From: Haliotis asinina | Taxonomy: Eukaryota; Mollusca; Gastropoda; Lepetellida; Haliotidae | NCBI RefSeq assembly: GCF_037392515.1 | Contig: NC_090283.1 | Span: 23,836,749-23,900,748, forward strand | Direction: 5' to 3' | Length of the DNA stretch: 64,000 nt | In this document: positions 39,836-51,117 of the stretch, one piece after another | How the letters are laid out: every line of letters begins with the position of its first letter | Numbering within the stretch: position 1 is the first letter of the stretch | The notes under the pieces: generated by a model | Databases searched by the model: none | Seen by the model: only the letters and a program-made list of their open reading frames with translations | Told to the model about the DNA's origin: nothing | Position numbers and translations under genes: made by a program

Positions 39836-39993
39836 TCAGGGCCCCTCTGGACAGGTTTGTGTGACTGGATCGAAGCATACTCCCCCAGGGCAGGTGTAAA
39901 CAGATTGTGTTGATGCGGAACATTGTATATACTTGTGACAGGAATATGGGTGGCTGATTTTACTGTTGTCTGGTTTTCCCTTGCACTCTGTAC
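39836..39993 (-). CDS. VCBP-like gene exon 10 (CBM14 domain 2, stop)
   Basis: Acceptor cccttgttacag; ends in TGA at 39838-39836. Six cysteines spaced 14-5-9-4-7 (HPYSCHKYIQC, CPGGVCFDPVTQTC), matching CBM14 domain 1. Confidence 0.88.

Positions 39994-51117: not shown

Follow-up and report, generated by a model that had tools for sequence, protein, structure and literature searches.

A Haliotis asinina locus for a predicted type II membrane protein with two V-type Ig, C2-like Ig and CBM14 modules, and its gene family in abalone

The pairing of V-type immunoglobulin (Ig) domains with a chitin-binding domain is known as an invention of chordate gut immunity, in the form of the VCBPs. In the gastropod Haliotis asinina, the first-pass annotation of one stretch of genomic DNA read ten exons as a membrane-anchored molluscan protein in which Ig domains and the chitin-binding domain CBM14 occur together twice, and took this to be a version of the VCBP plan. 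This locus raises the question of what such a gene is: whether its exons form one gene, whether it has relatives, whether the copy in the assembly can still be functional, and whether it owes its domain pairing to the chordate genes. The whole stretch analysed, referred to here as the window, is 64,000 nucleotides long and lies at C4:23836749-23900748 in an assembly of 1.14 Gb.

Reading of splice sites and phases on the minus strand joined ten exons, from position 51117 of the window down to position 39836, into one frame of 763 codons and a stop. The ten exons and compatible phases reported earlier were thereby confirmed: all nine introns are of the GT-AG type (9/9), and seven of the nine are in phase 1, introns 1 and 4 being in phase 0. 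The locus is a real gene, and one gene, for a membrane-anchored protein with two Ig-Ig-CBM14 modules. Exon 1 (51031..51117) carries the ATG start and 29 codons of the N-terminal cytoplasmic tail, ends in phase 0 and is aligned in P0001, the H. cracherodii protein described below. Exon 2 (49767..50019, end phase 1) completes the tail, including YLPESQYDDI, and continues into the transmembrane segment; exons 1 and 2 match the assembly at the window locus only. The Ser/Thr stalk of the first-pass annotation was found in exon 3 (47752..48021, phase 1-1), the composition of which is 33% Thr, 22% Ser and 13% Pro. The first module begins with an Ig domain, V1, divided between exon 4 (46504..46700, phase 1 to 0) and exon 5 (46099..46240, phase 0 to 1), the second part containing CEDVGTYYC, and continues with C2-like Ig domain 1 in exon 6 (45404..45739, three Cys) and CBM14 domain 1 in exon 7 (44395..44574), both in phase 1-1. 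The second module consists of the whole V2 Ig domain in exon 8 (43542..43880, with an in-frame TGA inside) and C2-like Ig domain 2 in exon 9 (42364..42693, three Cys), both again in phase 1-1, followed by CBM14 domain 2 and the terminal stop in exon 10 (39836..39993). The V domain occupies a single exon in V2 of the window and in two sister genes, D1 and D2.

Computation of hydropathy gave one strongly hydrophobic segment of 21 residues (residues 86-106, mean hydropathy 3.16), flanked by a net charge of +3 over the 15 preceding residues and of -2 over the 15 following ones, and neither a hydrophobic N-terminus nor a secretion signal was found in the 763-codon model. Because the positive side precedes the transmembrane segment and the N-terminus is not hydrophobic, we say, by these simple hydropathy and charge measures, that the window protein is a predicted type II membrane protein, as had been claimed. 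The tail motif YLP(E/D)SQYDDI is kept between the window species and H. cracherodii, and its YDDI presumably fits the YxxPhi uptake motif.

Profile searches placed both modules among the CBM14 proteins, with CBM_14 scores above the Pfam curated cut-off of 22.1 bits in exon 7 (29.1 bits, E 1.1e-6) and in exon 10 (38.8 bits, E 1e-9). The V-set match of window V1 lay under its curated cut-off (E 0.063), and exons 6 and 9, searched alone, gave no Ig match in Pfam. V-set scores elsewhere were likewise below the cut-off, at E 9.1e-4 in P0001, 0.035 in D1 and 1.4e-5 in D2 (25.7 bits against a cut-off of 26); no Ig family reached its curated cut-off in the Pfam searches of the window, P0001, D1 or D2, and CBM_14 was the sole domain over cut-off in P0001. 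Among aligned members, V-set was matched at E<=1 in five of the seven V domains (best 1.4e-5), while the second Ig domains gave C2-set_2 in two of eight (best 8.1e-4) and V-set in none of the eight at E<=1. Searched against the PDB, the second-Ig profile matched CD276, SYG-2, JAM and antibody light chains (best E 9.3e-4). An extra Cys eight residues ahead of the last Cys is common to all seven aligned V domains, and one Cys to all eight second Ig domains, the other two being missing in the second Ig of D2. The Ig assignment is made because family members match, the window exons alone being below cut-off. The cassette may accordingly be read as V-type Ig, C2-like Ig and CBM14, the C2 label being a weak one taken from two of eight members. 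The earlier description of two V-type Ig / Ig / CBM14 modules thus stood for CBM14 in the window itself, and for the Ig domains through their relatives.

A single protein matched the model. P0001, an 'uncharacterized protein' of 766 aa from Haliotis cracherodii (sources ncbi and uniref; record shown without function), was the sole match at E<=0.01 among 7999 scored candidates when residues 204-763 were used as query, with E 2.9e-292, 100% coverage and 78% identity (435/559). P0001 aligned with the model from end to end, through tail, transmembrane segment, stalk and both modules, and was identical to it at 568 of the 750 aligned positions (75.7%). The layout of P0001 is the same as that of the window gene over its full length and differs in V2: the region of exon 8 is open in P0001 and carries a stop in the window copy, so that an open version of the gene exists in a related species. 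Although P0001 is perhaps itself a computed annotation, its alignment offers independent evidence that all ten exons form one gene. The sole match, coming from Haliotis, also agrees with the protein being molluscan. A protein search with the two modules of sister locus C found none among 8000 scored candidates, its reach being limited by word sharing, and a search with alignment A1 was uninformative, since it gave no match and missed even P0001, which is in A1. With a single hit and searches of such limited reach, absence of the family outside Haliotis is not demonstrated.

Searches of the genome with exons 6 and 9 gave matches at four further places, all on contig C4, and reading of the DNA there showed the V/Ig/CBM14 order in five more genes. 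At locus A (16.86 Mb) and at locus C (21.35 Mb), stalk-like frames are followed by two V, Ig, CBM14 modules in a row and an extra CBM14; locus B (17.16 Mb) has the order of A, is more damaged and contains three stop codons. Locus D (5.93-5.96 Mb) holds two genes. In D1, a type II transmembrane exon is followed by a Ser/Thr-rich exon, V, Ig and two CBM14 domains, and the spliced frame is open over 2,201 codons from the transmembrane exon through the last CBM14. The long exon of D1 (C4:5950741-5956035, minus strand) is a single open stretch of 1,765 codons between the transmembrane exon and V, with 36% Ser+Thr (24% Ser, 12% Thr) and 13 occurrences of SMNLGSSS. D2 comprises V, Ig and CBM14 together with a type II transmembrane exon assigned to them from its position, strand and donor phase alone. 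The cassette exons of D1 and D2 are bounded by GT and AG splice sites, all in phase 1; the tail of D2 contains YSEI, and the tail exon of D1 has no YxxPhi-type motif.

Cassette membership was established exon by exon for the window (twice), D1 and D2, and by exon order alone for A, B and C. A 5' exon for a type II membrane segment is common to the window gene, H. cracherodii, D1 and D2, and the membrane-exon search found none upstream of A or B. Upstream of C, where the region is partly N, a transmembrane frame was rejected as part of the family: it reads like an unrelated receptor, and matches between A and C of more than 250 bp start only at position 13610 of C. Three of the six genes carry lesions in the assembly (the window TGA, A and B); open frames were seen in the exons of D1, of D2 and of the part of C that was read. 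Six genes is a lower bound, as the D2 V query finds only D2, so that divergent members would be missed. On these sequences the locus is a member of a small abalone gene family of putative type II membrane glycoproteins, built from a phase-1 cassette of V, C2-like Ig and CBM14.

Identity between the two window modules is 21% for V and 27% for each of Ig and CBM14, and the modules are, to judge by their sequences, old; the module tree gave a sister relation between them no support either way. The term 'duplicated' in the first-pass annotation therefore describes the form, a module present twice, better than it does the 21-27% identity. Across the family, V domains are 14-24% identical, two orthologue pairs excepted. 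Comparison of A with C over six of seven blocks, the CBM1 block being left out, counted 26 synonymous and 19 non-synonymous changes (dN/dS 0.21), and that of C with B, the three stop codons left out, 29 and 28 (ratio 0.28). A and B share an 8-bp frameshifting gap in Ig1 relative to C. With few changes and damaged copies, these ratios only suggest past constraint. Gain or loss of a cassette exon in phase 1-1 leaves the reading frame intact.

The only interruption of the 763-codon frame is the TGA in V2, at codon 560 of the model (window 43668-43666, minus strand), with 454 nt between it and the last exon junction further downstream. It had been overlooked in the first-pass annotation; the ten exons themselves are right. 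The ten-exon transcript of the window copy cannot give the full protein in the sequenced individual. Since the DNA around exon 8 has a single match in the assembly, there is no second haplotype with which the stop could be compared. An intron within exon 8 that would remove the stop was judged unlikely: in-frame GT-AG pairs are present, the shortest of 66 nt, and each cuts into the V domain. Skipping of exon 8 keeps the frame and leaves 650 open codons without V2. Possible outcomes for the window copy are thus no product at all, truncation after one complete module, or a 650-residue protein from which V2 is skipped.

With the TGA in place, it is doubtful that the window copy still functions. 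The reading in which it is dead, either as a pseudogene or as the null allele of the sequenced haplotype, so that only the orthologue and the sister genes matter, falls in our judgement just short of an even chance. The stop lies where nonsense-mediated decay is expected, and decay of related copies is seen in the Ig1 gap common to A and B and in the stop codons of B. Set against this, all other exons, splice sites and phases are intact, the tail, transmembrane segment and CBM14 domains are well conserved with H. cracherodii, one lone lesion is compatible with an allele that is young or polymorphic, and in-frame skipping of exon 8 is possible. Such a reading of the window copy can be combined with either of the functional readings of the family considered below.

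What can be read from the sequences is the predicted anchor, the stalk and both cassettes, together with an orthologue and the sister genes; on function we propose, with middling confidence, a stalked cell-surface receptor that would dock on chitin through CBM14 and bind a second ligand through V. The stalk would hold the cassettes off an epithelial or haemocyte surface, and CBM14 could dock either on host chitin (gut or mucus lining, shell matrix) or on fungal or microbial chitin. The V domains may bind the second, fast-changing ligand, and the YxxPhi motif of the tail (YDDI) may drive uptake or signalling. Such a protein would work like a cell-fixed VCBP, differently built, with Ciona VCBP-C as the functional precedent.

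An adhesion tether is a less likely alternative to this receptor. Here the protein would fasten the epithelium of mantle, gut or radula to host chitin in shell matrix, cuticle or mucus, and the V-C2 domains would make cell-cell or matrix contacts. Long Ser/Thr-rich stalks are mucin-like, up to the D1 exon of 1,765 codons (36% Ser+Thr), and the V-C2 tandem recalls adhesion proteins, the profile matches of the window and family Ig domains including JAM, SYG-2 and CD276 (B7-H3). In each of these three proteins V precedes a C2-like domain and the topology is type I; to our knowledge they have no chitin-binding domain. CBM14 is moreover widespread in the genome, all 150 of the domains scored being over cut-off, of 517 candidates. 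The divergence of the V domains (14-24% identity) and the damaged copies are more usual for immune genes and so speak against a tether, as a tendency and not a proof.

The likeness of the receptor proposed here to VCBPs lies in the presence of Ig domains and a chitin-binding domain in one protein, with a possible parallel in function. In the excerpts of the Ciona studies, the Ig domains of VCBP-C bind bacteria and its chitin-binding domain binds chitin (PMC6414549, PMC4757023). VCBPs, as characterised in the part of the source available, combine a pair of V domains with a chitin-binding domain; their exon 1 encodes a secretion signal, and every exon is in splicing frame 0 (PMC2632668). The window gene, in contrast, has V, C2-like Ig and CBM14 twice, a type II anchor and phase-1 exons; it shares the chitin-binding domain, and has neither the secretion signal nor the frame-0 exons. 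For two V domains in tandem, the scores, weak throughout, give V-set in 5/7 of the first Ig domains, and V-set in 0/8 and C2-set_2 in 2/8 of the second. No VCBP was among the best 60 of 6400 PDB matches of the V profile.

Descent from the VCBP plan, as the first-pass annotation had it, is therefore not supported: the type II anchor, the phase-1 module exons and, on weak evidence, the C2-like second Ig all depart from it. The idea of joining Ig with chitin-binding domains is the same, yet a true VCBP homologue that had gained a membrane anchor and lost its phase-0 introns is very improbable, given the phase-1 cassette and type II anchor against the secretion signal and frame 0 of VCBPs (PMC2632668, excerpt), the weakly supported C2-like second Ig and the lack of a VCBP among those best 60 PDB matches.

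A second comparison is with the gastropod VIgL proteins, which resemble the window gene in joining an IgSF part to a carbohydrate-binding domain. As far as the excerpts of the sources go, their partner is a fibrinogen, C-type lectin or galectin domain (FREP, CREP, GREP; PMC9334734), none has CBM14 (PMC9334734, PMC7588048, PMC12074976), and FREPs have a signal peptide and are secreted (PMC7588048). The window gene has CBM14, without a signal peptide and without a fibrinogen, C-type lectin or galectin partner, CBM_14 being the sole domain over cut-off in P0001. Membership in either the VCBPs or the VIgL proteins was rejected on these features of anchor, phases and partner domain. In the portions of the reviews at hand, FREPs are assigned to molluscs and VCBPs to protochordates (PMC13428168, PMC12074976), and one places VCBPs in echinoderms (PMC5877582). 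No molluscan Ig-CBM14 receptor was found among the open-access literature matches listed (titles and abstract openings), and we found no description of the family in the literature. The best PDB match of the first module was 8in3, a 25 kDa polyphenol-binding protein, with E 3e-12 over the CBM14 part; it differs in having no Ig domain in the matched stretch. We take 8in3 to be a sea-hare protein without a membrane anchor.

We suggest tentatively, and somewhat on the doubtful side, that abalone receptors arose independently of the chordate VCBPs: CBM14 would dock on chitin and a fast-diverging V domain would read a second ligand, on stalks as short as a single exon of 90 codons and as long as one of 1,765, with renewal of the genes by birth and death, the window copy being an allele caught at its loss. 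If true, a membrane-fixed combination of V, C2 and CBM14 in a gastropod, with other phases, would suggest that the pairing was reached more than once in animals. The genes would also form a concrete set, in farmed animals, for asking if docking on chitin is a matter of immunity or of tissue attachment, and as most domains are single short phase-1 exons, domain-level binding tests would be easy.

That two adjacent genes, one for a membrane-anchored stalk and one for Ig/CBM14 domains, were joined in error is barely credible, although introns are long and the model was built from genomic DNA, because the phases run on continuously through the exons and the tail, transmembrane segment, stalk and both modules lie in the single H. 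cracherodii protein P0001 (perhaps a computed annotation), which spans both parts, so that fusion of neighbouring genes was rejected and the two sets of exons belong to one gene, as first proposed.

Several other features were observed on the plus strand of the window. Positions 2-586 hold the 3' part of a leucine-rich-repeat receptor, where LRR_8 (1.7e-4) and LRRCT (0.0068) match without reaching the Pfam cut-off and are followed by a hydrophobic segment and a tail. Transposase-like pieces at 6768-7761 gave helix-turn-helix and DDE_3 matches under cut-off. At 17276-17626, a Met followed by a hydrophobic stretch and a Cys-rich end resembles a small secreted protein, and 28813-29088 is a Cys-rich frame, neither having a Pfam match at E<=0.01. 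A VWA domain (Pfam E 1.6e-16) lies in one open frame at 26415-26996. Genome-wide, the 517 CBM14 candidates, 150/150 scored being over cut-off, form clusters on contigs C1 (about 95.4-95.5 Mb), C5 and C3.
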